A stretch of 59,431 nt of DNA, from contig JAKBZR010000007.1 of assembly GCA_021842405.1 (NCBI GenBank), positions 1 to 59,431 of the forward strand, in the 5' to 3' direction. The stretch is from a bacterium. Its GTDB lineage: Bacteria; Armatimonadota; Chthonomonadetes; Chthonomonadales; JAMCWF01. A model generated the notes under the pieces. It ran no database searches, had not been told where the DNA came from, and saw nothing but the letters and a program-made list of their open reading frames with translations. Below are positions 7,568 to 46,684 of this stretch, piece after piece. The position numbers and the translations under genes were made by a program. Positions within the stretch are counted from its first letter, which is position 1. Each line of letters begins with the position of its first letter.

Positions 7568-7953
7568 TGGCTCGCTTCCTCCACGATCTGACGATAGGCA
7601 TCGGCATCGAGCAGGCCGTCCAATTCGGAGGGGTCGCTCATTCGTATCAGGATGATCCAACCTTCATCGTAAGCCGATTCGTTCACTCGCTCGGTATGAT
7701 TCAGAATATCGGTATTCGTCTCCACCACCTCCCCGCTAACCGGCGCATAGAGGTCGGAGACTGCCTTCACCGATTCCACCGCGCCGAATACGTCACCCTT
7801 ACTCAGAATTCGGCCAACCTCCGGCAAATCCAAATAGACGACGTCGCCCAGCTCCTCCTGGGCGTGATCGCTGATGCCGACCCGCACTTTGTCGCCCTCT
7901 ACCTTTGCCCACTCATGGGTCACCGAATATTTTCGATCGTCCGGAATCAACAT
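7564..7953 (-). CDS. gcvH: Glycine cleavage system H protein
   Basis: A 129-residue lipoyl carrier that shuttles the aminomethyl group between the P and T proteins and electrons to the L protein. The lipoylation site is visible in GDVFGAVESVKAVSD with the acceptor lysine at residue 63 (the usual position is 63-64), and the C-terminal GW(I/L) element appears as DEGWIILI. ATG 7953 has GAGGAGG about 7 nt upstream; a GTG two codons earlier is possible but badly spaced. It is separated from gcvT by a 213-bp gap filled by an inverted-repeat element, while the downstream genes overlap. The dihydrolipoamide dehydrogenase (L protein) gene is not in the window. Confidence 0.97.
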   Translation of the reverse strand: MLIPDDRKYSVTHEWAKVEGDKVRVGISDHAQEELGDVVYLDLPEVGRILSKGDVFGAVESVKAVSDLYAPVSGEVVETNTDILNHTERVNESAYDEGWIILIRMSDPSELDGLLDADAYRQIVEEASH

Positions 7954-7991
7954 TCCCACTCCTCCTCAAGATAGTTATATTAATCTGAATC

Positions 7992-8160
7992 AGGATTTTC
8001 TTGATTAAAGGATGGCCGGGATTGTACCCACCGCGACAATTTATCGCTTTAATCATGTACACAACGCCGTTAATGTATGCGCATGTTTTGTCGTACAGAG
8101 CGTAAGCATGCGCACATATTTATGACGCTCAGTACATGGCAATCCTTTAATCCTAAAAAT
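7992..8160. repeat. Large imperfect inverted repeat between gcvT and gcvH
   Basis: About 170 bp with nested inverted arms. Outer arms contain GATTAAAGGAT (8003-8013) against ATCCTTTAATC (8142-8152), extended outward by a GATTTT/AAAATC pair at matching spacing. Inner arms are CATGTAC (8054-8060) against GTACATG (8132-8138), then a roughly 14-bp arm with CATGCGCA around a loop of about 20 nt. It could be a small palindromic transposable element or a structured RNA in the gcv transcript. No coding sequence is seen in it. Confidence 0.7.
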
Positions 8161-8166
8161 CGTGGT

Positions 8167-9255
8167 TCAGACCGGCCGTGTGCCGAGATGCGAGAGCAGA
8201 CTCTTTTTAGGAACTACATGAACCGTATAGTTGCGGCCACGCACCCTAAAGAATAGGGGCGAGCCGCTCCGGGCATACGCCGGCGAAACGTAGGCCATCC
8301 CGATCCCACGTTCAAGCACCGGTGAATAGACCCCGCTCGTTACGGAGCCGACCACCGATTCATCATTAAAAAGAGTATACCCTTGCCTCGGAACTACCCG
8401 TTCGGCGTGCCAGATGCCGACCAGCAGTCGGCCCGGCCCCTCTTGTTGCGTGCGCCGAATCGCCTCCTGGCCGATAAAGCGATCGCTGCTCATATCAACC
8501 ACCCACATCAGGCGGGCTTCCACCGGGCTGATATCCTCGTCCAACTCGTGTCCATACAGCGGATAACCGGCCTCGATCCTCAAAGCGTCACGCGCGCCCA
8601 ACCCGCAAGGCAGCGCTCCGGCCTGGATAAAGGCAGACCACAGCTCGGCGGCGTACTCCCGTTTTACGACCACCTCAAAGCCGTCTTCACCCGTGTAACC
8701 GGTTCGGCAAATTCGAGCGGGTGAGCCCAATACGCCTCCGGTCGCCCAGCCGAATCGAGGGAGATCCGCAATCTCCATATCGGTGTGCGGTGCCAGCAGC
8801 GATACGGCAGCCGGTCCTTGAACGGCCACCATCGCGGTCCGATCGGTATGGTCATCAAAAGAGACGCTGGAATCCGCATGTTGGTGAAACCAGGCGATGT
8901 CCTTATCCGTGTTTGAGGCGTTCAACACCAAAAAGAAGGAATCGGGTGCATCACGATAGATAATGATGTCGTCCTTAATACCACCCTCCGGGTTCGGAAT
9001 CAACGAGTAACGTGCCCGCCCGACACTTAAATCGGCAAGCCGATTGGTGGTGGTACTCTGGAGAAGTGAAAGTGCACCCGATCCTGAAATTTGCAGCCTT
9101 CCCATATGTGAAATATCGAATATGCCGGCCGCTTTTCGAACGGCTAGCGACTCTTCCAGTATTCCGGAGTAGCTCACCGGCAGCGACCAACCCGCAAAAT
9201 CAACCATCCGAGCATTCAGTTGGAGGTGATTCTGATTCAAGGGACTGATTTTCAT
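8167..9255 (-). CDS. gcvT: Glycine cleavage system T protein (aminomethyltransferase)
   Basis: A 362-residue cytoplasmic enzyme that moves the methylene group from aminomethyl-lipoyl-GcvH to tetrahydrofolate, releasing ammonia. Family blocks seen: MVDFAGWSLPVSY at the N-terminus, GIFDISHMGRL, ILNASN-type segment LVLNASNTDKDIAW, RTGYTGEDGFEV and the glycine/Asp block GARDALRIEAGYPLYGHELD. Length matches the family. The ATG at 9255 overlaps the previous gene's stop as ATGA and has GGGAGGT about 7 nt upstream. First catalytic gene of the cluster; a spacer containing a palindromic element follows before gcvH. Confidence 0.96.
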   Translation of the reverse strand: MKISPLNQNHLQLNARMVDFAGWSLPVSYSGILEESLAVRKAAGIFDISHMGRLQISGSGALSLLQSTTTNRLADLSVGRARYSLIPNPEGGIKDDIIIYRDAPDSFFLVLNASNTDKDIAWFHQHADSSVSFDDHTDRTAMVAVQGPAAVSLLAPHTDMEIADLPRFGWATGGVLGSPARICRTGYTGEDGFEVVVKREYAAELWSAFIQAGALPCGLGARDALRIEAGYPLYGHELDEDISPVEARLMWVVDMSSDRFIGQEAIRRTQQEGPGRLLVGIWHAERVVPRQGYTLFNDESVVGSVTSGVYSPVLERGIGMAYVSPAYARSGSPLFFRVRGRNYTVHVVPKKSLLSHLGTRPV

Positions 9256-26640: not shown

Positions 26641-27387
26641 TTAACGATTGCAGCCGGTTGAGCCAAGCGCGGAAGCGATCTCCCGATTGATGGATTCGGC
26701 TGCAACTACCGGATCGTCGGCTTGAGTGATGGGGCGCCCCACCACTACATAGGAAGCGCCGTTTTGCATCGCTTCACCGGCGGTGGCCGTTCGGACCTGG
26801 TCATGCGCTTTCGCTTCGACCGACCTGACACCCGGTGTAATCAGACAAATATCTGGCCCCAACTCCTTTCTCATCCGCCTCACTTCGAGCGGCGAGCATA
26901 CAATGCCGTAGCAACCAGCGGCCTGCGCCATTCCGGCAAAATTCATGACGTAGTCATCAACCGGATAATCCACCATAAGCTCCTGTCTTAAAGAGCCCCC
27001 GCCGATGCTGGTCAACAAGGTCACCGCGATGACCTTTAGATTGGCCGGTTTCTCTCCATCCGTTTCACCTTGAGCGGCGCGGCAGGCGGCCTTGAGCATC
27101 TCGGAACCGCCTCCGGCATGAACCGTCACCATCTCAACTCCGAGCCGCGCAATCGCCCGCACGGCGCCGGCAACCGTCTTGGGAATATCGTGCAGCTTGG
27201 CGTCATAAAAAATACGATCCGCCCCCGCCGTTCGCAAATTGGCCACGATGCCCGGCCCGGCCGAGTGGATCAGCTCGAGACCGACCTTAAAGCCGGCGAC
27301 TTGACCTTTTAACTGACCCACCAGTTTGAGCGCATGACCGATGTGGTTTACATCCAGCGCCACAAATATCCGACTTTCGCTTTTCAA
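26641..27387 (-). CDS. pyrF: Orotidine 5'-phosphate decarboxylase
   Basis: A 248-residue TIM-barrel enzyme that turns OMP into UMP, the last step of pyrimidine synthesis. IFVALDVN at the N-terminus and the catalytic DAKLHDIPKTV block (Asp-Lys-Asp tetrad residues, near residues 62-72) are intact, as is the phosphate-binding end TPGVRS and YVVVGRPIT. Length is typical. The start is TTG 27387, sharing a TTGA overlap with the stop of the giant secreted protein upstream and with an AGGAG nearby. Other pyr genes are not in the window; coupling to a glycosidase-like gene is unusual. Confidence 0.95.
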   Translation of the reverse strand: MKSESRIFVALDVNHIGHALKLVGQLKGQVAGFKVGLELIHSAGPGIVANLRTAGADRIFYDAKLHDIPKTVAGAVRAIARLGVEMVTVHAGGGSEMLKAACRAAQGETDGEKPANLKVIAVTLLTSIGGGSLRQELMVDYPVDDYVMNFAGMAQAAGCYGIVCSPLEVRRMRKELGPDICLITPGVRSVEAKAHDQVRTATAGEAMQNGASYVVVGRPITQADDPVVAAESINREIASALGSTGCNR

Positions 27388-30300
27388 TCCGAACTCCTAT
27401 TAACGATTGGACTCACCTCAATTACACTGGCAGGGTTCATCAGCCGAATCTCCGGCTCCCCCCAGGATCCCCAGTCGGCGGTGGAGTTATTATGCACCAC
27501 ATTCCCTCGTAGTACCAAGCGCACTTGTTGCCCCTCGAAACGGCTTAAATCGGCCTGCATCACCCTCCACTGGTGCTGAACCCCCAATTTTGACGCCAAT
27601 TGGATTCGCTGACCCTTCGAGTTGATGACGTCCAGGATAAAGTCGAGGCCGACGCTCGGGTCGCCCCCATCCTTTAGGCCGATGAAGCTGTGGAACTCCA
27701 CCGGCTCGTTCGGCAGTCGGATCGGCTCCGATATGGCCCAGGTATAGCCGATGCCGTGAATATAGGGCGGATGCATGAAGATTCCGTGCTTCACCGCCCC
27801 GCCGACCGGCAGTTCCTGACCGGGACTGAACATCGCGCCCGAAGTGCCGTCATCCGGTTCCTCATGTTGGCCGCGGAGAGCAATGCCCCACTGGTAACGC
27901 AGCGAGGTTAAATCAAACAGCTTTGCCGGTTGATTTCGACGGGTCAGTTGGAATTGGGCGCTGTAATTTCGATGGCATCCGGACACCGTAACGGTCAGCC
28001 GCCCGCTGACGGCCGGTGTGCTGCCGGGCCGAATGACAAGATTGATCTCCGAAGGCGGCTTCGTGGAGCTGAAATACAGTTTGCGGGGCGAAACCTCGAA
28101 TCCATCTGATACGGAACCATGTACGGCCAGTCTCGCTCTCGGCAAACCGCCCAAAAACCAGATCGGTTTCATCGCCAGCGTCGTCTTTTCGGGTGAGACG
28201 ACGGATTGGAATCGCCACTGAACCGGTGCTATCACCTGAATCATGGCCTCCCGTATCGCTTTTCTATGGATCGCGGTGACCCGCACCCAAGTCCCAATTT
28301 TGGCATCGGCCGGGATGGTTAAAACGTTGTGAGAAACCGTGCCCTGATTGGCAACCAAACGAGCGGAGCCGACCCTTAATAATAAAATCGGAACCCGGCT
28401 GCCCGGCGCCGCCACCGCCCTTTGAGGTTGAATGGACCAGGTCGTCTTGCCGGAAAAAATCAGCACGTAACGGATCGCCTGATTAACCGGCTCGATCCAG
28501 GTTGCGTTGCCCGAATCGTGGAGGACGGCGTTATGAAGCTGTTGCCCGTTCACGGCGTACGACTTACATTGAACGACAGCGGCCTTCGTTCCATAGGGTC
28601 GCTTGATCTCAAAGGCGCCGGTTCCGGAGATATGCACAATCTTGAGGTAGTTCGCGTCGCCCGGAATAATGGCCAGTGCGCCGTTGGAGCCGGCCGACTC
28701 GGTTTCAAACCAGTGCCCTCGACCATCCTGATAGGTATAGGCGGCTGATCTCAGAAAATCGTACTTGCGCCCATTACGAAGCGCTGAAAAGCTGAAAAGG
28801 GGCCCGCGCCGACTTTTTTCTTGTTCCACCACCCATCCGGCCGGCGGAACGTTGATATCCATTCCGTGCGCCTTAACCAGCCAGTCCTGATCGGGGCTGT
28901 CGTTCAGCCAGAGCTTTAAACCGTTTGGATACTCGAGAAATAATTGCCGACGCTTGCGAGGGAGATCCCTCTCCACTGCGCGGGAGGTGCCGACCAGCTT
29001 TTGGCCATCCCAGTAGGCGATCCGAACCGGCACTTTCAAACCGTAGCGGGCCTGCACCTGCTGGAGCATATAGTAAGACCGGCACGTCCGCTCAATTCCG
29101 TACTGCTCCTCCACCAGCCAGCCGATATGCCCGTAAGCCATCGTGGTCAGTATAAATCGGTCAATCGCGCGATCAAGGTTTTGAGGCGCTTGCCAGTTCG
29201 GGATAGCGTCACAATAAAAGGTGGTCCAGCTCACCCCGATATCGCACTCTTTGGGATGAATTTGGAGCAGATCGAAGACCGGAAGCAGCGGCTCGGTAGC
29301 GAGCGGACGATTATTATAGGTGTGGCCGTAGTTGCCGTCATCGAGGCCGGCGTAGAAACACTGGTAGGTTCCTTCCGAAAAGACCGGTCCGCCATAGATG
29401 CGCGAGTCGTTACGGAGAAGCTGCCCATACGCATAAAAGGTCTGGGCGAAGGTGCCGGCTCCGGGAAGCCGGGCGTCGAAATCGGTATGGTACCACGGAG
29501 AAACGGCGGTCATTACGTCAGTATAGGCGGCATCGGAACGGTATCGCTTTTCAACTTGCGGTGCTATTTCGGCCTCAAATTGCACCGCGGCCAGCGGCTT
29601 CTCCGCCCAGCACCGATACCAGGCCCCCTGCCAGCTCCCGTCCGATAGGAGTATCACCTTGTTTGGATCCCACCGCTTATCAATGGGCGCAAAATCGCTG
29701 TAGTTGGTGTAGAGGCCGCTCAGCCAGCCGAGCGACTTTTGATGCGCCACGTACTGCTCCAGCGCCCGATCACCGCCGCCCAACACCGGCTCCCCATTCA
29801 CAATGGGAGAGTTGCCTCGGAGCGGGGCGGCGTGGGTGCGCAGCGTAAAGCTCTCCCCGCGATCACGCCATGCGATCTCATGGTTGCATTGGATGAGCCT
29901 TCTGATCCCATAGGCGCGCAACATATCGCTTCGCTTTTCTTCCTGGACGTAGCTCTCCGGTCCCCAAGATTCCTGCCAGAGGCGGTTAGCCGCCTCTTTA
30001 GCATGCAAGCCGACCGGATTGGCAATAGTCGGCAAGACCTCCTCCAGCGAAGGCGAGACGGTGACGAAAAGTCGCTCATACATCGGGTTGAGCTTTCCGT
30101 TGGTAAGCGGTAAATAGTTAATAGCGCCGTTAATCCGCGCCGTCGCGCCGCCCGCGAATTGGGCGCCTCGCAGCTCGGACCCGTTGGAGCGGTACCAATC
30201 GGGCCAGATGGAGGTGTAGACCCAGCTTCGTCCGGCCCGGCTGAGTAACACGCTGGGATCGTTTGAGCTGCCGCCATAGGTTCCATAGACCAAGAAGGGA

Positions 30301-31478
30301 ATATAGAGGGCGCGTGGATCGCTCAAACCGGTGAGCTGGCCGAAATGGATGCTGGTCGCACGCCTTGTGCGGTTGATTACGTCAATCACCAACGATTTTT
30401 GCCAGATTTGAAGCCGGAGCTCGGTGCCGTCACCGTACCACGCCCTCAATAAATCGGATTGCAGGATCACCCGAGCAAGTGTGAAGGGGTTGCTCTTCTT
30501 ACCCTGGATTACGATTGAGGAATCAGCCATCAAGCGGCCGACGTTGGCTCCGTTATAAATTGCGGTGAGGCCGCTCAGACCCTTTTTCGCATTGAACCGG
30601 TAGGTTAAACGGCTTTTTGCCCCTTGATAGGTAAAGAGATAAAGGTCCGATCGCGCCTTAACGATACCGTTTCGGTAGTGTGGATCGCGATTATAGGGCA
30701 AAATCGTTTGCTCTCGGGTTGGAAACGGCAAGCGACCGGGGCCGGTATTGGCGCCAGGGGATTGGCCGGGCAGCAGGGTTAAATTGCGGCGAGGCAGCGG
30801 CGGAAAGTGAAGCGGCGGCAGCAACTCATGGTAAAACCGGATTGAATCGAGGTAGATGACCCGATTCTGCGCCTGCCAACCGCCGACAATCTGTATGCCG
30901 ACCAGATCGGCCGGAAATGTCAGACCGGCCGGCAGCTTGGTGTGGAGCAAAAACCACTGCGGCCAGTCGATACTGGCGATTTGGACGGGGATCGTGTTGC
31001 CCGCCGCGTCTCGAATCAGCAGGGTGATGGAGACCGGTGGGGTTTGGGACAGCGGCGGGGTGCCGGGCGGCTCCGAGCCAAACGTCCATCGGTCGCCATA
31101 GACCCACATATTCACCGCATCGGCGCCATCCGGTATCGCGATCGGTTTCGGTGGTGTGAGAGTGATGCGAGGGTTGGAGGATTGCTTGCCATCCCCCTGG
31201 TAGGTCAGCTCGCCCACTGGCCGATTCCACAAGTTCTGTGCGCGGCTGAGCTGCAAAACCGCCTTCGCTCCGCCTACCACCTGCATCGTCCAGCCGTTTA
31301 GGTCGGCGAAGGTCAGGGTCGGCGGCCCCGCCTCTTTTCGGTGCGCCCAGTAAATCTCGTAGGGCTGCACTCCAACCGGCTCATTGGGATTGATTTGTGG
31401 AACGACGGTCTGTGCGACGGCCACATTAAACGCGAATAAGAAGGCGATTGTAAGGGTCACTGAGGGTCCGCTGCGCAT
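27384..31478 (-). CDS. Giant secreted protein, probable glycoside hydrolase-like enzyme
   Basis: 1364 residues with a signal peptide (VTLTIAFLFAFNVAVAQ). Residues about 30-230 look like a beta-sandwich carbohydrate-binding module (PDGADAVNMWVYGDRWTFGS). The middle (about 560-860) looks like a TIM barrel: GWLSGLYTNYSDFAPIDKRW, AYTDVMTAVSPWYHTDFDAR and YGGPVFSEGTYQCFYAGLDD contain acidic residues at strand ends that could be catalytic. The C-terminus (PPYIHGIGYTWAISEPI, then GLKDGGDPSVGLDFILDV) resembles an NPCBM-type galactose-binding domain. I cannot name the family. RBS CAGGAG precedes ATG 31478. It is secreted and likely acts on polysaccharide. Confidence 0.7.
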   Translation of the reverse strand: MRSGPSVTLTIAFLFAFNVAVAQTVVPQINPNEPVGVQPYEIYWAHRKEAGPPTLTFADLNGWTMQVVGGAKAVLQLSRAQNLWNRPVGELTYQGDGKQSSNPRITLTPPKPIAIPDGADAVNMWVYGDRWTFGSEPPGTPPLSQTPPVSITLLIRDAAGNTIPVQIASIDWPQWFLLHTKLPAGLTFPADLVGIQIVGGWQAQNRVIYLDSIRFYHELLPPLHFPPLPRRNLTLLPGQSPGANTGPGRLPFPTREQTILPYNRDPHYRNGIVKARSDLYLFTYQGAKSRLTYRFNAKKGLSGLTAIYNGANVGRLMADSSIVIQGKKSNPFTLARVILQSDLLRAWYGDGTELRLQIWQKSLVIDVINRTRRATSIHFGQLTGLSDPRALYIPFLVYGTYGGSSNDPSVLLSRAGRSWVYTSIWPDWYRSNGSELRGAQFAGGATARINGAINYLPLTNGKLNPMYERLFVTVSPSLEEVLPTIANPVGLHAKEAANRLWQESWGPESYVQEEKRSDMLRAYGIRRLIQCNHEIAWRDRGESFTLRTHAAPLRGNSPIVNGEPVLGGGDRALEQYVAHQKSLGWLSGLYTNYSDFAPIDKRWDPNKVILLSDGSWQGAWYRCWAEKPLAAVQFEAEIAPQVEKRYRSDAAYTDVMTAVSPWYHTDFDARLPGAGTFAQTFYAYGQLLRNDSRIYGGPVFSEGTYQCFYAGLDDGNYGHTYNNRPLATEPLLPVFDLLQIHPKECDIGVSWTTFYCDAIPNWQAPQNLDRAIDRFILTTMAYGHIGWLVEEQYGIERTCRSYYMLQQVQARYGLKVPVRIAYWDGQKLVGTSRAVERDLPRKRRQLFLEYPNGLKLWLNDSPDQDWLVKAHGMDINVPPAGWVVEQEKSRRGPLFSFSALRNGRKYDFLRSAAYTYQDGRGHWFETESAGSNGALAIIPGDANYLKIVHISGTGAFEIKRPYGTKAAVVQCKSYAVNGQQLHNAVLHDSGNATWIEPVNQAIRYVLIFSGKTTWSIQPQRAVAAPGSRVPILLLRVGSARLVANQGTVSHNVLTIPADAKIGTWVRVTAIHRKAIREAMIQVIAPVQWRFQSVVSPEKTTLAMKPIWFLGGLPRARLAVHGSVSDGFEVSPRKLYFSSTKPPSEINLVIRPGSTPAVSGRLTVTVSGCHRNYSAQFQLTRRNQPAKLFDLTSLRYQWGIALRGQHEEPDDGTSGAMFSPGQELPVGGAVKHGIFMHPPYIHGIGYTWAISEPIRLPNEPVEFHSFIGLKDGGDPSVGLDFILDVINSKGQRIQLASKLGVQHQWRVMQADLSRFEGQQVRLVLRGNVVHNNSTADWGSWGEPEIRLMNPASVIEVSPIVNRSSD

Positions 31479-31623: not shown

Positions 31624-32247
31624 CTATAGAGTTTGCAAGAATTTTTTAAGCGGTTTAAAGACGGAACTATCCAGATTCCAGTAACCACTTTTCCCCGTCG
31701 CCTCGCCTACCAGTAGACCCGGTTCCTTCCGAGAAGCCAAAAAAGTATGCAACCGGGCCTTGTCTGCATTTTTTGGTAGCGCGGATGACTTTTTTAAGCA
31801 ATCAAGATATTGGTGGACGCATGGGATTGCGGAATCGTCCGATCTTGCCACTGCCTGCCAGCAGAGCGTCTCCAACATTCCCGGGTTTTGGCAATCCGGC
31901 AAAATAAAAACCGATATATTCGGGTCGCCGTCAACCATTTCGCTCGGGTGGGAAGGCACCGCAAAACCGCTCGCTTTCAGCGCATCACAAACCGACTGGA
32001 AAGCCGAGCCCATATCCAATTCAGCGTCACGAATGACGCCAAGTGAGTTGACATTCATTGACCGATAACTAGAACTGGCTTTTAGGGATTTCAGATATTT
32101 ACGAAATTGTGTTATCCCACCAAAATCCAGGATTTGAATGTCAGCTTGTTTTTCTATGTGCACACACAATTTATCGAAAAATATTTTTTCATCTTTGCCT
32201 TCCACTAGCACGATCTTAGGACGTGTGACCACTTCCGGGTCGGGCAT
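31624..32247 (-). CDS. DUF3226 Toprim-like protein, partner of the AAA ATPase
   Basis: A 207-residue protein of the DUF3226 family (Toprim-like fold). The Toprim glutamate is in VLVEGKDE (Glu16), the acidic pair in VIRDAELD (Asp74, Asp78), and the family block ILPDCQNPGMLETL is present near residues 114-127. Toprim proteins coordinate Mg2+ and may cut or nick nucleic acid. Its ATG lies one base after the stop of the AAA gene and its GGAGGTG is inside that gene, so they are cotranscribed and coupled. This pairing (SMC/ABC-like ATPase plus small Toprim protein) mirrors OLD nucleases and the AriA/AriB pair of PARIS, but with DUF3226 rather than DUF4435. A role in defence is inferred. AT content is higher than in neighbours. 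Confidence 0.85.
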   Translation of the reverse strand: MPDPEVVTRPKIVLVEGKDEKIFFDKLCVHIEKQADIQILDFGGITQFRKYLKSLKASSSYRSMNVNSLGVIRDAELDMGSAFQSVCDALKASGFAVPSHPSEMVDGDPNISVFILPDCQNPGMLETLCWQAVARSDDSAIPCVHQYLDCLKKSSALPKNADKARLHTFLASRKEPGLLVGEATGKSGYWNLDSSVFKPLKKFLQTL

Positions 32248-32248
32248 A

Positions 32249-33355
32249 TCACCGCACCTCCAGGTTACTGGAGATGGCGGTTTCTATCATTTCCTGGTCA
32301 TAAACGATAGCATCAACGTCCTCTTTTATGTTATCCAAACGAATCACCCGAAGATCGTTGGGATCGGCTTCCTTAAAAGCCTCGTGGGCGGCGCAAATAC
32401 ATTCCCAGCTATGGGTGGTGGCGAATATCTGCAAATCGTGATCTTTCGCCGCTTGATTGATCGCTTTCCATACGTTCTTCATCGTGGAATGATGAAGTCC
32501 GTTTTCCACCTCGTCTATGAGCACGATTCCCTTTTCCGCCTGCGTTATCGCCAAAATAATCGAAGTGAGGCGCACCATTCCCTGTCCCATCAAGGGTAAT
32601 GGGATTAGACGCTCAAGGCCAATATCACCGTAGAGCATCGGGGTTTGTCCCATCAATAAAACGGAAAGTTGTTTCAGCCTTTTCTCCAATATTTTCAGCG
32701 GCTCGATAACCTCATCAATGCGTCCCACCAGCGCTAAGCTGCTATATATCTGCACATATTCATTCGTTAAGCGATTTGAGGCACCCATAAGGCGGGTTAA
32801 AGGCATAAGTGGCAACTTACCTTGACTAGTTGCAGTTTCAGTCGGCGTAATCTTAATATGAGATTCGTAAGCCTCATTATTAAAATCCTTGAAAACAAGT
32901 TTTATTTCCCATAAGCCTTTATCGGTGCTAAGAGAAGTGGTTGGCTTTGAAAGGTTCTCGGAAGTTGGTATGCTCTCCCTTACAATACCGCTCACTTGCC
33001 TTGTCGTCATAACCATGTCTTGTTGAGTTAAATATATTTCAAGTGACCGTCTCTTTTTGTCATCATTTTGGATAATCAATTGAATCGGTTCGTTAGAAGC
33101 GTCGCTGTGAAACAGTGAGCGGCAGTTTCCTACCATATCATCCGAGGGAGTTGGAAAAGTAAGAGGTATGCCTCGAAAGCCATTTATATTAGCAACAATT
33201 TGAAGATTATTTCCTGCCATGTGCAAATAAATCGCTTCCAATAATGCCGTCTTGCCGACGTTGTTGGATCCCATGATCAAGTTCACGCGAGCGAACGGCT
33301 CAATCTTTATATCACGGAAACAGCGAAAGTTTTTTATCTCAAAAGATTCCAGCAT
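32249..33355 (-). CDS. AAA/ABC-type ATPase of OLD/AriA kind
   Basis: A 368-residue cytoplasmic ATPase. The N-terminus LESFEIKNFRCFRDIKIEPF leads to Walker A GSNNVGKT (residues 29-36); PLMGQGMVRLTSIILAI is the ABC-like signature region, LIDEVENGLHHS is Walker B (Asp281-Glu282), and FATTHSWECI is the H-loop. This arrangement is that of AAA_15/AAA_21 ATPases found in OLD, RloA and PARIS AriA proteins. There is no fused nuclease domain; instead the following gene supplies a Toprim protein. The gene is clearly AT-richer than the glycosidase genes around it, suggesting transfer. A possible start is ATG 33355 with AGGTGG about 11 nt upstream. Confidence 0.9.
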   Translation of the reverse strand: MLESFEIKNFRCFRDIKIEPFARVNLIMGSNNVGKTALLEAIYLHMAGNNLQIVANINGFRGIPLTFPTPSDDMVGNCRSLFHSDASNEPIQLIIQNDDKKRRSLEIYLTQQDMVMTTRQVSGIVRESIPTSENLSKPTTSLSTDKGLWEIKLVFKDFNNEAYESHIKITPTETATSQGKLPLMPLTRLMGASNRLTNEYVQIYSSLALVGRIDEVIEPLKILEKRLKQLSVLLMGQTPMLYGDIGLERLIPLPLMGQGMVRLTSIILAITQAEKGIVLIDEVENGLHHSTMKNVWKAINQAAKDHDLQIFATTHSWECICAAHEAFKEADPNDLRVIRLDNIKEDVDAIVYDQEMIETAISSNLEVR

Positions 33356-33535: not shown

Positions 33536-36073
33536 TCACCTCACGATCTGATAAGTACCGGGCCGCAGCAACCAGCCGCTATGAACGGCCGGAGCCAGGC
33601 TCTTCGTCGCACCCTCAATCCGGTAGCATTTTGCCCGCTCCCAACCCGACATTTTCAAACGAAACCACTGCCAATGCTCTTGCAGCTCACCCACCGGCGC
33701 CTCGAACGAGCCGTTCAAGCAGTTTCCCACCAGTTGCGCATCCGGATTTACAGTCAGTTGATACCCATTCGCACCAATTTTTTCAAGAACATAGAGGCCG
33801 CTTCCCCCATAATCCACGTAGGGCGATGAGCCGGTTCCCACGATTTTAACCGGAGATGGCGGCCATTTTAGCGGACGCCAGCGATCGTTTATTTGCCGCG
33901 AATGGTAAACCCGATCTTCGGTGGCGAGCAGGGTCATGTTTTCATAGAACGAAACGGCCATCGGGGGCAGAATGAGCGGCCCCGGTCCGGCCGTATAGCG
34001 GATCCCGCGCGGTAAGCGCCGGAACGCCTCGCCGGCCGCCATGTAACTGACGACTTTGGTCGGGGTGTAGAGCCAGTTCAGCCAGTGAGCGTTCCAATCG
34101 GTGTTCCAACGAGCGGTCGCAAGGGTGTCGTACTGAAATTGGCAGGCGATCTGGCACTCGCCGCTGCGAAAGTGGGCCGCGATGGCGGGATAAAGGTAGC
34201 AGCTCACGTTGGTCGCCGGCGCATCGAACTCGTAGGCCACCCGCGCCTTCTTTGCCAGGCGCCCATCCAACTGCAACGGCCCCACCGATGGCAACAGGTT
34301 AGTTCCATCGTTAACCTGCTCCCAGCCGCCCGGATAGATGCTTACCGTCACCGCCTCGCACTCGGAGTCGGCGATCGCCTGGGTCAGATCATCCCCCGGA
34401 TCAAAGAAATAAGAGACCGCCACCGGCTGGTCGGCGGCGGTTGAGCGAATGGCGCCGATCATTTCGGTCAGATAGGTGCGCATCAGCTCGTATCGGAAGA
34501 AGGGAAAAAAGGCAACGCGGTCCTTTAACTGATGGTTTGTTAGCCACCTTTGCCATAATTCACGAAATATTCGATGGTCCTTCTTCAGCACATCGGCCGG
34601 CTCGCCCTGGGGCGAGTAAGCATCGCCGGTAATATCGCCATAGCTGAAATAGGACGGCTCATTCATGATTTCCAGGAAGCAGACGTTCGGCTGATCCTTC
34701 AGTGCGCGCCCGCTGTAAGGATTGATGTGATTCAGAAACTGACGGATGAAATTTGAGGCCGCCGCCTTCGCGGCCGGAACGAACATCATTCCCGGCTTGC
34801 TGGTGAAATTGGAAAAGGCGTCCGGCCTTGCATTGGGGCTGTTCCACCACGCGATGAGGGTGAAGTAAAAGTAGATGCCTCGATCGGCGCACTCGGAGAC
34901 CAGATAATCCAGCAAATCTAAATGGATGTTCGGCTTTAAATTACCCTTCGAATCGCTGATCTCCCGATCGAAAACGTGGATGCGAATAATTTCGACGTCC
35001 ATCCGTTGAAGATCATCCAGATCCTGGCGGATGGTTGCCTTCATATCAACCCGTCGGGCCTCCATGTTGACAAACTGCTGCCAGGCCATAGGGTAGTAGT
35101 TCGTTCCCCAGAGGGCGACCTCGGCGCCTTCCGGATAACGCAGCACCCCATCCTTCACATGCAGCCGCCGAAAAGGATGCGGTGTGCCGATCGGTCCCGG
35201 TTTCGGGCGCTGGATCGGCGGCGTGGCGCCGGCCGGCTGGTTCGTCCAGTTGCCCGCATCGCCCGACACGATCAGATAGGGCGGCTCGTAAAGACCACCG
35301 CCGAAGGTTGGATTTTCCACCATTACGGTCAGCAGGTTCGGCTTCCCCCACCGAATCAAATTTTCCGGCGCCACGTAATCCCGCGGTGTATTCCAGCCGT
35401 TTATGTGACCAATCTCAGTCCCGTTCCAGTAGGTAATATCGTTATCGTCCACTCCGCCCAGTAAAACATGGAGCGGCCGCCCCCGCCAATCGTCCGGCAC
35501 ATTGACCCAGACCCGGCACCAGGCGTTTTCGTTGCTCTCCCACATGTGAGGAATGGCCAGGCTTTCCCAATTCTCGTCATTGAGCGATGGAGCAGCGAGC
35601 AGTGGGTTGATCGGCTGGCTGGCCGGGACGAATTTGCGTTTCCATGTAAGGCCGGACAGATCAATGCCGCGCCGAATTGCAATATCAGCGACCGCCTCGT
35701 TCAACCGCGCGACGAGGGTCGCATTTGCGGTATTTGGGCTTATAGCGGCTTCAACTGTTACCAGCTTCCAACCGAAAGACTTCAGGCTGCATGCGACGTG
35801 ATCGGGAGTTACCGATCCATTTTCGATGGCGAGATCGAGATTTCCGGTTACCGGTGAGGAGCCTCCATTATAAAGCATCAAGATGATGCTTTCTGGTGAG
35901 CTCCCGCCGATGACATAGGAGGGAGCGCGAATTTGAAGGTCGTCGCCCGCCATACCGCTAGCACCGGCATACCGGCTGACGCCAAGCGCCGCGCTTGACA
36001 GCGCTGAGCTTATCAGAAACTCACGCCTTGAGACTTTCCCCTTCTGAGCTTTCGCGCTCCCCCGATTAGGCAT
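33536..36073 (-). CDS. Tat-exported glycoside hydrolase with GH2-like and GH5-like domains
   Basis: A protein of about 845 residues with a twin-arginine signal (SRREFLISSALSSAALG, residues about 16-32). A jelly-roll sugar-binding domain follows (WCRVWVNVPDDWRGRPLHVL, with WNGTEIG), as in GH2 enzymes. The TIM barrel then contains CFLEIMNEPSYFSYGD with the likely acid/base at Glu472 and VAYEFDAPATN with the likely nucleophile. A clan GH-A exo-glycosidase is the best guess; sugar specificity is unknown. Starting at ATG 36073 puts the gene 5 bp after the isomerase stop, suggesting an operon; a TTG at 36094 inside that gene would be the alternative. Tat export suggests that it folds, or binds a cofactor, before export. 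Confidence 0.82.
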   Translation of the reverse strand: MPNRGSAKAQKGKVSRREFLISSALSSAALGVSRYAGASGMAGDDLQIRAPSYVIGGSSPESIILMLYNGGSSPVTGNLDLAIENGSVTPDHVACSLKSFGWKLVTVEAAISPNTANATLVARLNEAVADIAIRRGIDLSGLTWKRKFVPASQPINPLLAAPSLNDENWESLAIPHMWESNENAWCRVWVNVPDDWRGRPLHVLLGGVDDNDITYWNGTEIGHINGWNTPRDYVAPENLIRWGKPNLLTVMVENPTFGGGLYEPPYLIVSGDAGNWTNQPAGATPPIQRPKPGPIGTPHPFRRLHVKDGVLRYPEGAEVALWGTNYYPMAWQQFVNMEARRVDMKATIRQDLDDLQRMDVEIIRIHVFDREISDSKGNLKPNIHLDLLDYLVSECADRGIYFYFTLIAWWNSPNARPDAFSNFTSKPGMMFVPAAKAAASNFIRQFLNHINPYSGRALKDQPNVCFLEIMNEPSYFSYGDITGDAYSPQGEPADVLKKDHRIFRELWQRWLTNHQLKDRVAFFPFFRYELMRTYLTEMIGAIRSTAADQPVAVSYFFDPGDDLTQAIADSECEAVTVSIYPGGWEQVNDGTNLLPSVGPLQLDGRLAKKARVAYEFDAPATNVSCYLYPAIAAHFRSGECQIACQFQYDTLATARWNTDWNAHWLNWLYTPTKVVSYMAAGEAFRRLPRGIRYTAGPGPLILPPMAVSFYENMTLLATEDRVYHSRQINDRWRPLKWPPSPVKIVGTGSSPYVDYGGSGLYVLEKIGANGYQLTVNPDAQLVGNCLNGSFEAPVGELQEHWQWFRLKMSGWERAKCYRIEGATKSLAPAVHSGWLLRPGTYQIVR

Positions 36074-36078
36074 TCGCG

Positions 36079-36924
36079 TTAGATCTTGGCCCAAACCTTG
36101 TTGAGCGCGGCCGCCGTATCCCGCGCCGCCTCGTCAGCCGGCAGCGCTGCGGTCGGCTTATGGAAGGGCTCCGGCGTAATGGGTCCTTGGTAACCGATCT
36201 TTTTCAGCCCGCGCAGGAATCCCACCAGGTCAATCACGCCGGTGGCTCCCGGCAGATCCCTCACGTTATCCATCTGCTCGTCCACTGGAATGCCCACCGG
36301 GGCATCGTTGACGTGCACATAGACCACCTGCTCCGGCTTGAGCGCTTCCACCTCGGCGACCGTGTGGTGGGCGGTGTACCAGTGCCAGCAATCCAACAGC
36401 AGGCCGACGTTCGGTCCGATCGCAGCGTCCAGCTCCAGCATTTTGTCCATCGTGTGAATGAATTCGTACTTTTGGCTGGTCCAGAGCGTTTTTGGCCCGA
36501 TGAACTCAAGACCGAGGCTGCAACCGTGATCCCGCAGCGTTTTTGCAATCGGCGTGAAGCGCGCCACCGCAAAGTCCCAGTATTCCGAGTAGGTCATCGT
36601 GTTGGAGCAGGGCATCACCCAGGTCGAAACCCGGGTGCAGCCGATGGCCTGGCCCGCCTTCGCCAGCCGAGGCAACTGCTCTAAATCCTTGCGCCATCGC
36701 TCTTCGTCACCGCGCCACTCCACCGGCAGTCCCCACCCGCCGGGCAGTATCCCATTTTTCCGAAACAGGTTGATGACTCGCTCCGCTCCGATCTCATTCA
36801 GCAGGTTGGCAACCTCACCGATCGGCACCTCAACCCCTTGAAAGCCGGCGTCTTTCGCCAACTGTATGCCCCGTTCCAATCCGGCCGAAATCCCGATCGC
36901 GCCCGGGCTTAGACAGGTAAACAT
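36079..36924 (-). CDS. Sugar phosphate isomerase/epimerase (AP endonuclease 2 fold)
   Basis: A TIM-barrel protein of about 281 residues in the xylose-isomerase-like superfamily. Metal-binding acidic residues are in GLEFIGPKTLW, LLLDCWHWYTAHH, VYVHVNDAP and ITPEPFHKP, the usual four barrel-strand ends. The reaction cannot be named; members isomerise or epimerise keto sugars such as hydroxypyruvate, tagatose or inositol derivatives. I chose ATG 36924, because the AAGGAG abuts the earlier ATG at 36936 but lies 12 nt from this one. It precedes the Tat glycosidase (5-bp gap), suggesting that the two process one substrate. Confidence 0.85.
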   Translation of the reverse strand: MFTCLSPGAIGISAGLERGIQLAKDAGFQGVEVPIGEVANLLNEIGAERVINLFRKNGILPGGWGLPVEWRGDEERWRKDLEQLPRLAKAGQAIGCTRVSTWVMPCSNTMTYSEYWDFAVARFTPIAKTLRDHGCSLGLEFIGPKTLWTSQKYEFIHTMDKMLELDAAIGPNVGLLLDCWHWYTAHHTVAEVEALKPEQVVYVHVNDAPVGIPVDEQMDNVRDLPGATGVIDLVGFLRGLKKIGYQGPITPEPFHKPTAALPADEAARDTAAALNKVWAKI

Positions 36925-45679: not shown

Positions 45680-46684
45680 ATGCAAGAGCTTTCCTTTGAT
45701 CCACAGCGACTCCCCAAGCATTTACAACGCACCATCAGCACGTTATACGAGAATGGGCAATCACCAAATGGATGCTTATTGCCGAATAACGTTTATCAAG
45801 GTGACGCACGCATATTGTTGCCAAAGATTGACCCGAACAGTGTTGCGTTGAGCGTCTGGTCCCCTCCATATTTTGTTGGAAAGAGTTATGAATCCCATAT
45901 ATCCTTTGAGGAATGGCAAGATTTACTGAGTTCGGTCATCGCCCTTCACTTCCCGATCATTAAGCCCGGCGGTTTTCTTGCAATCAATATCGCAGACATT
46001 CTCTGTTATCGTGATGATTCGATGCCTCGTATCCAAGCAGAAGCAGCCAATCGTCGTAAATCGAAAGTCACCAGAGAGGATGTACTGCGCACCATAAAAG
46101 AGCATCCGGAGGCGAATCGGTATCAATTAGCGACCTTACTCGGGTGTAGTGAGCAGACGATTGATCGGCGTTTACATGGAAACAACATCCGCGGCGGTAA
46201 ATATGAAACTCAGACCCGAGTTAAGATTGTTGGAGGAATGGTGGAGACATGGGCATTGGAGGCCGGTTTCTATCCTTATGATCGACGAGTATGGGTTAAA
46301 GACGCGGCCTGGGAGAATTCTCGCTGGGCAAGCCTTTCATATCGGGCGGTTGATGAATTTGAATATATCTATATATTCTGGAAGCCTGGCATCACCAAGT
46401 ATGACCGAAACCGATTAACTATGGATGAATGGAAGAATTGGGGATCGCGCGGGGTTTGGACATTCCCTTCGGTCCGTGCAAATGATGATCATGAAGCTAA
46501 GTTTCCCATTGAATTGCCCCGGAGATTAATACGTCTACTTACTGAACCGGATGAGATAGTTTTGGATTGTTTTCTTGGGAGCGGGACATCTGCACTTGCG
46601 GCCATTCGAGAAGGACGGCGCTACATCGGCATCGAACTAGAAGAACGATATATTCGACTAGCAAAGCAACAACTATTTTTGTAA
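45680..46684 (+). CDS. Site-specific DNA methyltransferase (beta class) with internal HTH
   Basis: A 334-residue amino-methyltransferase. SPPY at residues 61-64 is the catalytic motif IV of N4-cytosine/N6-adenine enzymes (Ser form favours N4-mC), and DCFLGSGTSALAA near residue 296 is the SAM-binding motif I, in the permuted (beta) order. Between them lies an insertion of about 45 residues, with TREDVLRTIKEHPEANRYQL and ATLLGCSEQTIDRRL, that reads as a winged or ordinary helix-turn-helix; this would help recognise DNA. AAAAGGAGG precedes ATG. The gene is AT-richer than its neighbours and has no recognisable restriction enzyme, so it is an orphan methyltransferase or a broken R-M system. Confidence 0.9.
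   Translation: MQELSFDPQRLPKHLQRTISTLYENGQSPNGCLLPNNVYQGDARILLPKIDPNSVALSVWSPPYFVGKSYESHISFEEWQDLLSSVIALHFPIIKPGGFLAINIADILCYRDDSMPRIQAEAANRRKSKVTREDVLRTIKEHPEANRYQLATLLGCSEQTIDRRLHGNNIRGGKYETQTRVKIVGGMVETWALEAGFYPYDRRVWVKDAAWENSRWASLSYRAVDEFEYIYIFWKPGITKYDRNRLTMDEWKNWGSRGVWTFPSVRANDDHEAKFPIELPRRLIRLLTEPDEIVLDCFLGSGTSALAAIREGRRYIGIELEERYIRLAKQQLFL

Follow-up and report, generated by a model that had tools for sequence, protein, structure and literature searches.

A two-gene module of an ABC-type ATPase and a DUF3226 Toprim-type protein with a predicted anti-phage function

An AT-rich gene pair and its two proteins

The stretch of DNA analysed here (59,431 nucleotides from an Armatimonadota genome, hereafter the window) contains an AT-rich two-gene insert at positions 31624..33355, the composition of which is foreign to its flanks. 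Gene A (32249..33355, minus strand) encodes an ABC-type ATPase of the AAA_15/OLD-like kind with 368 aa, and gene B (31624..32247, minus strand) encodes a DUF3226 protein of 207 aa, a putative nuclease of the Toprim type. Gene A has the last base of its stop codon at 32249 and gene B its ATG at 32247, leaving one base between the two reading frames, exactly as the initial annotation had placed them. The window as a whole has 55.0% GC, and its AT content over 1.7 kb peaks at the pair, with 45.0% GC; only 5/1154 sliding windows of the same size are as low in GC, and all 5 of these overlap the pair. The GC3 value of 0.49 also falls below the range of 0.63–0.76 found in the neighbouring genes, and the AT-richness relative to the neighbours that had been noted at the outset is thus real. 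Target-site or direct repeats and a tRNA were looked for at the insert and none was found.

The genes on either side are largely metabolic, encoding orotidine decarboxylase, sugar-isomerase-like and gluconolactonase-like proteins, together with large proteins without a Pfam match. Two such proteins of 1364 and 852 aa flank the pair (27384-31478 and 33536-36094, minus strand), both having homologues of ~53–54% identity in one order-level relative (G003), where the homologues of the flanking genes lie on separate contigs, so that a search for an empty insertion site in this relative revealed none. A second compositionally foreign gene (45680-46684, plus strand; GC3 0.44) encodes a solitary AT-rich DNA methylase of the N6/N4 type, for which no restriction partner was found among the adjacent open reading frames. 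The source genome has one DUF3226 gene in total and, elsewhere, a further OLD-like protein that combines ATPase and Toprim parts in a single chain, in a frame of 603 aa (G000:C15:35725-37089).

The ATPase displays a Walker A motif (GSNNVGKT, residues 29–36), a Walker B motif (LIDE, with D281 and E282), a D-loop (ENGLH) and an H-loop (H315, within THS), bearing out the motifs first read from the sequence, as well as a signature-like G257xG259xxR. It matches Pfam AAA_15 at 9e-26 (91.7 bits against a cut-off of 32.1). In an alignment of 83 homologues, residues G29, N31, G34, K35, G257xG259, D281, E282, H315 and S316 are kept in nearly all rows. Residues ~51–215 are poorly conserved, with a mean pairwise identity of 0.09–0.20 compared to 0.47–0.48 in the core, and we infer that this variable middle contains a sensor. 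The AF2 model (pLDDT 85) has PtuA, Rad50, SMC, OLD and GajA as its nearest folds.

Gene B matches Pfam DUF3226 (PF11536) at 1.1e-38 and OLD-like_TOPRIM at 2.4e-6. No solved structure that matches it by sequence was found; for its AF2 model (pLDDT 95), the four best PDB matches are all C-terminal regions of class 2 OLD proteins (6njx, 6njv, 6njw and 6nk8; TM ~0.5), and AriB is absent among the best 50. Conservation across the 83 homologues picks out E16 (82/83), D74 (83/83) and an aspartate or glutamate at position 76 (83/83), with E126 (82/83) and K163 (80 Lys and 2 Arg of 82) as further catalytic candidates. The initial annotation had assigned the active site to Glu16, Asp74 and Asp78. The first two residues stand, while Asp78, an aspartate in only 28/79 homologues, was rejected in favour of Glu76. 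The conservation of Toprim residues on which that annotation had staked its reading beforehand is accordingly seen for E16, D74 and D/E76.

The two-metal site of BpOLD is made up of E400, D455, D457, T506 and E508, and the helical domain contains K562 (PMC6755086). The acidic residues and the lysine of gene B follow the same order as, and have similar spacing to, BpOLD E400/D455/D457/E508/K562, and the predicted helices place E126 at a helix start and K163 inside a helix. Judged by order, spacing and predicted structure, residues E16, D74, D/E76, E126 and K163 constitute a putative complete two-metal active site of the OLD type. The protein appears to share the helical domain and catalytic lysine with the GajA/OLD DNA nucleases, and its modelled fold slightly favours a GajA-like DNA nickase; by analogy with AriB, tRNA cleavage may be the other possible type of substrate.

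Pairing, co-inheritance and a shared C-terminal tail

Seeding 151 Armatimonadota genomes with DUF3226 retrieved 26 genes in 23 genomes, and every gene with readable upstream sequence (25/25) is preceded directly by an ATPase gene on the same strand. DUF3226 is carried by 34 of 146 cyanobacterial genomes, with the ATPase upstream in 30/30 loci examined, such that 55/55 DUF3226 genes with readable context in the two phyla have an ATPase directly upstream. Seeding with the ATPase only, in a species-level collection, returned 80 loci from ~20 phyla including archaea, and DUF3226 lies directly downstream in 74/80, the two genes mostly overlapping by 1 or 4 nt. The other six comprise four loci without a detectable B (L039, L067, L100 and L106), one at a contig edge (L061) and one that is N-joined (L045). 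A true A–B fusion at the last of these was rejected, the junction being a scaffold gap (a run of Ns). No recurrent third gene is evident in the 80 loci beyond A and B, the next family occurring in 9 of them. Pairing is thus not confined to close relatives, a point on which the initial reading had been made to depend.

The distance matrices of A and B are correlated across 83 pairs (r = 0.73), and 0/2000 permutations gave a value as high. The dN/dS ratios for five close pairs (0.08–0.26 for A and 0.10–0.40 for B) indicate purifying selection on both genes. Copies interrupted by stops or frameshifts, or lacking the Toprim half, were seen at L057, L059, L063, L079, L005, L013 and L023, which could be cases of decay or errors in MAGs. 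The genome of a cyanobacterium, Hormoscilla sp. (G155; locus L074), contains seven DUF3226 matches.

The ATPases end in a Glu-x-Arg tail, with E366 conserved in 81/83 and R368 in 82/83 homologues. In the window, the tail is Glu-Val-Arg, encoded by GAG GTG CGG (32252..32260, minus strand), and these codons contain most of a Shine-Dalgarno-like GGAGGTG ahead of gene B: the junction reads CTG GAG GTG CGG and then TGA T ATG. Across 76 loci, the tail Glu codon is GAG in 64/74 compared to an expectation of ~31 based on the remainder of each gene, an excess which fits a ribosome-binding site, and the tail Arg is encoded by all six codons, in keeping with selection at the protein level. From its sequence, therefore, the tail appears to be put to double use, as a feature of the ATPase and as a translation signal for B. 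This tail is absent from the ATPases sampled upstream of RloB and of DUF4435 in the same phylum, and we propose that it forms part of a latch with the nuclease. More tentatively, the DUF3226 pairs might represent a separate split OLD-like class in which the tail latches the nuclease and its codons carry the nuclease ribosome-binding site, making synthesis of the nuclease dependent on a complete ATPase frame; we regard this combined idea as possible, with the balance somewhat against it.

Transfer, mobile carriers and genomic neighbourhoods

In a maximum-likelihood tree of A, the branches of bacterial and archaeal phyla are interleaved. The window protein falls there into a supported group of copies from cyanobacteria, Chloroflexota, Verrucomicrobiota and Planctomycetota, apart from most other Armatimonadota. 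This interleaving and the AT-rich composition uphold the transfer suggested initially. Among plasmid records, mostly from Klebsiella, 152 match A and 128 match B, the latter count having been made with a DUF3226 protein closer to the consensus than the window B, which as a query matched none of the annotated phage and plasmid records. The typical carriers are ColRNAI plasmids of 4.1–4.7 kb in which the pair is the main cargo. One plasmid version is present in 9 of 5,426 E. coli genomes, always on small plasmids, and a copy on a Plesiomonas plasmid comes after P2-like tail genes.

A relative of A is encoded by 38 viral contigs and is followed by a clear B in 19. The genes around ten viral copies belong to integrase, repressor, CII, O-like, Q-like, tape-measure and endolysin families, indicating that the carriers include temperate phages, and in the lambdoid L177 the pair sits between a P-like helicase loader and a Q-like antiterminator. 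On viral contigs L194, L196 and L203-L206, the ATPase is longer (~750 aa), ends in Asp-Ile-Arg-Gly and has a weak B match downstream; this version is possibly a fused-sensor subtype. The only chromosomal relative found in E. coli (MB06172) is part of a P4-like satellite at ssrA, where the pair (L214:8982-10690) is located between psu plus an ogr/Delta-like gene on one side and the integrase on the other (psu-int). This interval of P4 has been described as a reservoir of anti-phage systems and is one in which PARIS was found (PMC9122126). In the E. coli satellite L214, the ogr-like gene is separated from the ATPase by a gene for an uncharacterised 270-aa protein (7864-8676), which could be a further component or cargo in its own right.

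These carriers bear on whether the pair might instead be a plasmid or phage addiction (toxin-antitoxin) module, in which B is a toxic nuclease that A neutralises, with no phage sensing involved. Such a module would explain a neutraliser-first gene order with tight coupling, and the frequent residence of the pair on very small plasmids. There is also a precedent in the NetFlax AAA (D29) and TOPRIM_OLD (D44, D60) pairs, where the neutraliser and the toxic effector are likewise separate genes and where neutralisation by the AAA proteins was validated in E. coli (PMC10440598), although D44 differs from the window effector in being RloB-like. Every one of the 55 B genes has an A, whereas in four of the loci seeded with the ATPase A was kept and no B could be detected, but this asymmetry of orphans is not statistically clear. 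Moreover, PARIS has the same design and is not a toxin-antitoxin system, the deletion of either gene being non-toxic (PMC9122126), an antitoxin would not need to be an ABC ATPase of this size with a variable middle region, and the psu-int hotspot of the satellite carries defence systems. Simple addiction is therefore an unlikely explanation, albeit the strongest of the rivals considered here.

Around ordinary chromosomal copies, enrichment of defence genes is weak at most. For the nearest genes of 80 such copies, about a dozen of some 135 proteins are strong (threshold 1e-25) among the PADLOC matches listed, compared to about half a dozen of some 136 control proteins, all of these protein counts being approximate. 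Some of the strong matches around the copies are generic (WYL, TnpB-like) and the neighbours are mostly ordinary genes. Of the defence-island check proposed in the initial annotation, then, the expectation of widespread homologous pairs was borne out, and that of an enriched neighbourhood was borne out weakly at best.

Ordinary neighbours would also suit a housekeeping module for DNA repair or the cell cycle, built from a RecF/Rad50-like ATPase and a Toprim nuclease and comparable to the archaeal OLD-family protein Cran1. The RecF/Rad50/SMC-type fold of A is consistent with this, and OLD-family ATPases can indeed have cellular roles, as Cran1 exemplifies (PMC12796447). The distribution, on the other hand, is patchy (23/151 Armatimonadota and 34/146 cyanobacterial genomes), with up to 7 DUF3226 matches in one genome, broken copies, spread across phyla and carriage by phages, a satellite and minimal plasmids, all of which make a housekeeping role improbable.

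Relation to known systems and a proposed mechanism

Gene A matches the PADLOC model PDC-M38A (PDLC04611) at 1.2e-63 over its full length, and the adjacent gene B matches PDC-M38B (PDLC04623) at 4.5e-17 from end to end, with the same gene order. PDC-M38B also matches DUF3226 proteins encoded on plasmids, in phages and in other genomes, and the window copy differs in its divergence only, giving weaker scores with the B model than some plasmid copies. On the basis of the matches to both genes, we conclude that the window pair is a divergent member of PDC-M38, the PADLOC candidate under which the DUF3226 pair is already catalogued. We found no papers on DUF3226 or PDC-M38 in the literature searched, nor a phage test of any DUF3226 system in those papers, where we likewise came across no mention of the carriers described here, of the assignment of catalytic residues or of the apparent double use of the tail.

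The design of the pair resembles those of PARIS and Gabija, but it is a member of neither. In PARIS, sensing falls to a hexamer of the AriA ATPase, and AriB, once set free in dimeric form, cleaves tRNA (PMC12409363). The window pair shares the split arrangement of an AAA_15 ATPase and a Toprim effector, the PADLOC AriA model matches A at 2e-26, and, when compared by profile to six DUF4435 proteins, B scores a probability of 93.7% across the Toprim core; the P4 satellite hotspot, occupied by one DUF3226 copy, is also common to both. These similarities could be read as a divergent PARIS (AriAB), of the same family and trigger class and with a tRNA-cleaving effector. The defining component of PARIS is however DUF4435 (AriB) (PMC9122126), and since B is a DUF3226 protein that matches neither DUF4435 nor the AriB model, the pair is not PARIS by definition. 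The best folds of B are class 2 OLD regions, with AriB absent from the 50 listed, and the Glu-x-Arg C-terminus of the window-type ATPase is absent from the DUF4435-associated ATPases sampled. We therefore consider a divergent PARIS very improbable. The earlier description of an analogous pair using DUF3226 holds, given the lack of a DUF4435 or AriB match, the general pairing and the conserved Toprim residues.

Class 2 OLD proteins, including GajA of Gabija, provide the closest solved fold for B and the same order of catalytic residues, including the C-terminal helical lysine. Both classes 1 and 2 of OLD nevertheless combine the ATPase and Toprim parts in one polypeptide, whereas these are split in the window and in essentially all loci examined. 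Furthermore, the UvrD/PcrA/Rep-like helicase of Gabija (GajB) is absent beside the window pair, the flanks containing no UvrD domain. Because it is split and has no helicase, the pair is neither OLD nor Gabija. AbiL shares a two-gene abortive-infection layout, and its AbiLi model is the best single PADLOC match to A (3.4e-66), but the partner in the window is DUF3226 and not RloB (AbiLii), and the RloB-associated ATPases do not have the Glu-x-Arg tail. The AbiLii model gave 0 matches to seven DUF3226 proteins while matching an RloB positive control at 7.6e-33, and the profile comparison of B with RloB yielded just 3%.

Taken together, we think it likely that these genes form an abortive-infection (anti-phage) module of two proteins, with the ATPase and Toprim parts split between them, and a divergent member of PDC-M38; the anti-phage function is a probable one, predicted from the carriers and the design. 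In the mechanism that we envisage, the ATPase would multimerise and keep the DUF3226 nuclease in an inactive or sequestered state, the Glu-x-Arg tail would form part of the latch between them, and a sensor in the poorly conserved middle of the ATPase would detect a cue made by the phage. On sensing, an ATP-driven rearrangement would release or activate the nuclease, which would then cut host or phage nucleic acid and so bring the infected cell to a stop.

A concrete and testable role is hereby offered for DUF3226, an unannotated domain found in 15–23% of the sampled Armatimonadota and cyanobacterial genomes and also carried by small Klebsiella and E. coli plasmids. The satellite, lambdoid phage and small-plasmid carriers supply independent and compact versions that are compatible with E. 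coli. DUF3226 would be the third family of split ATPase/Toprim effectors beside DUF4435 and RloB, and would help in studying how a single ATPase scaffold came to be coupled to different nucleases and triggers.
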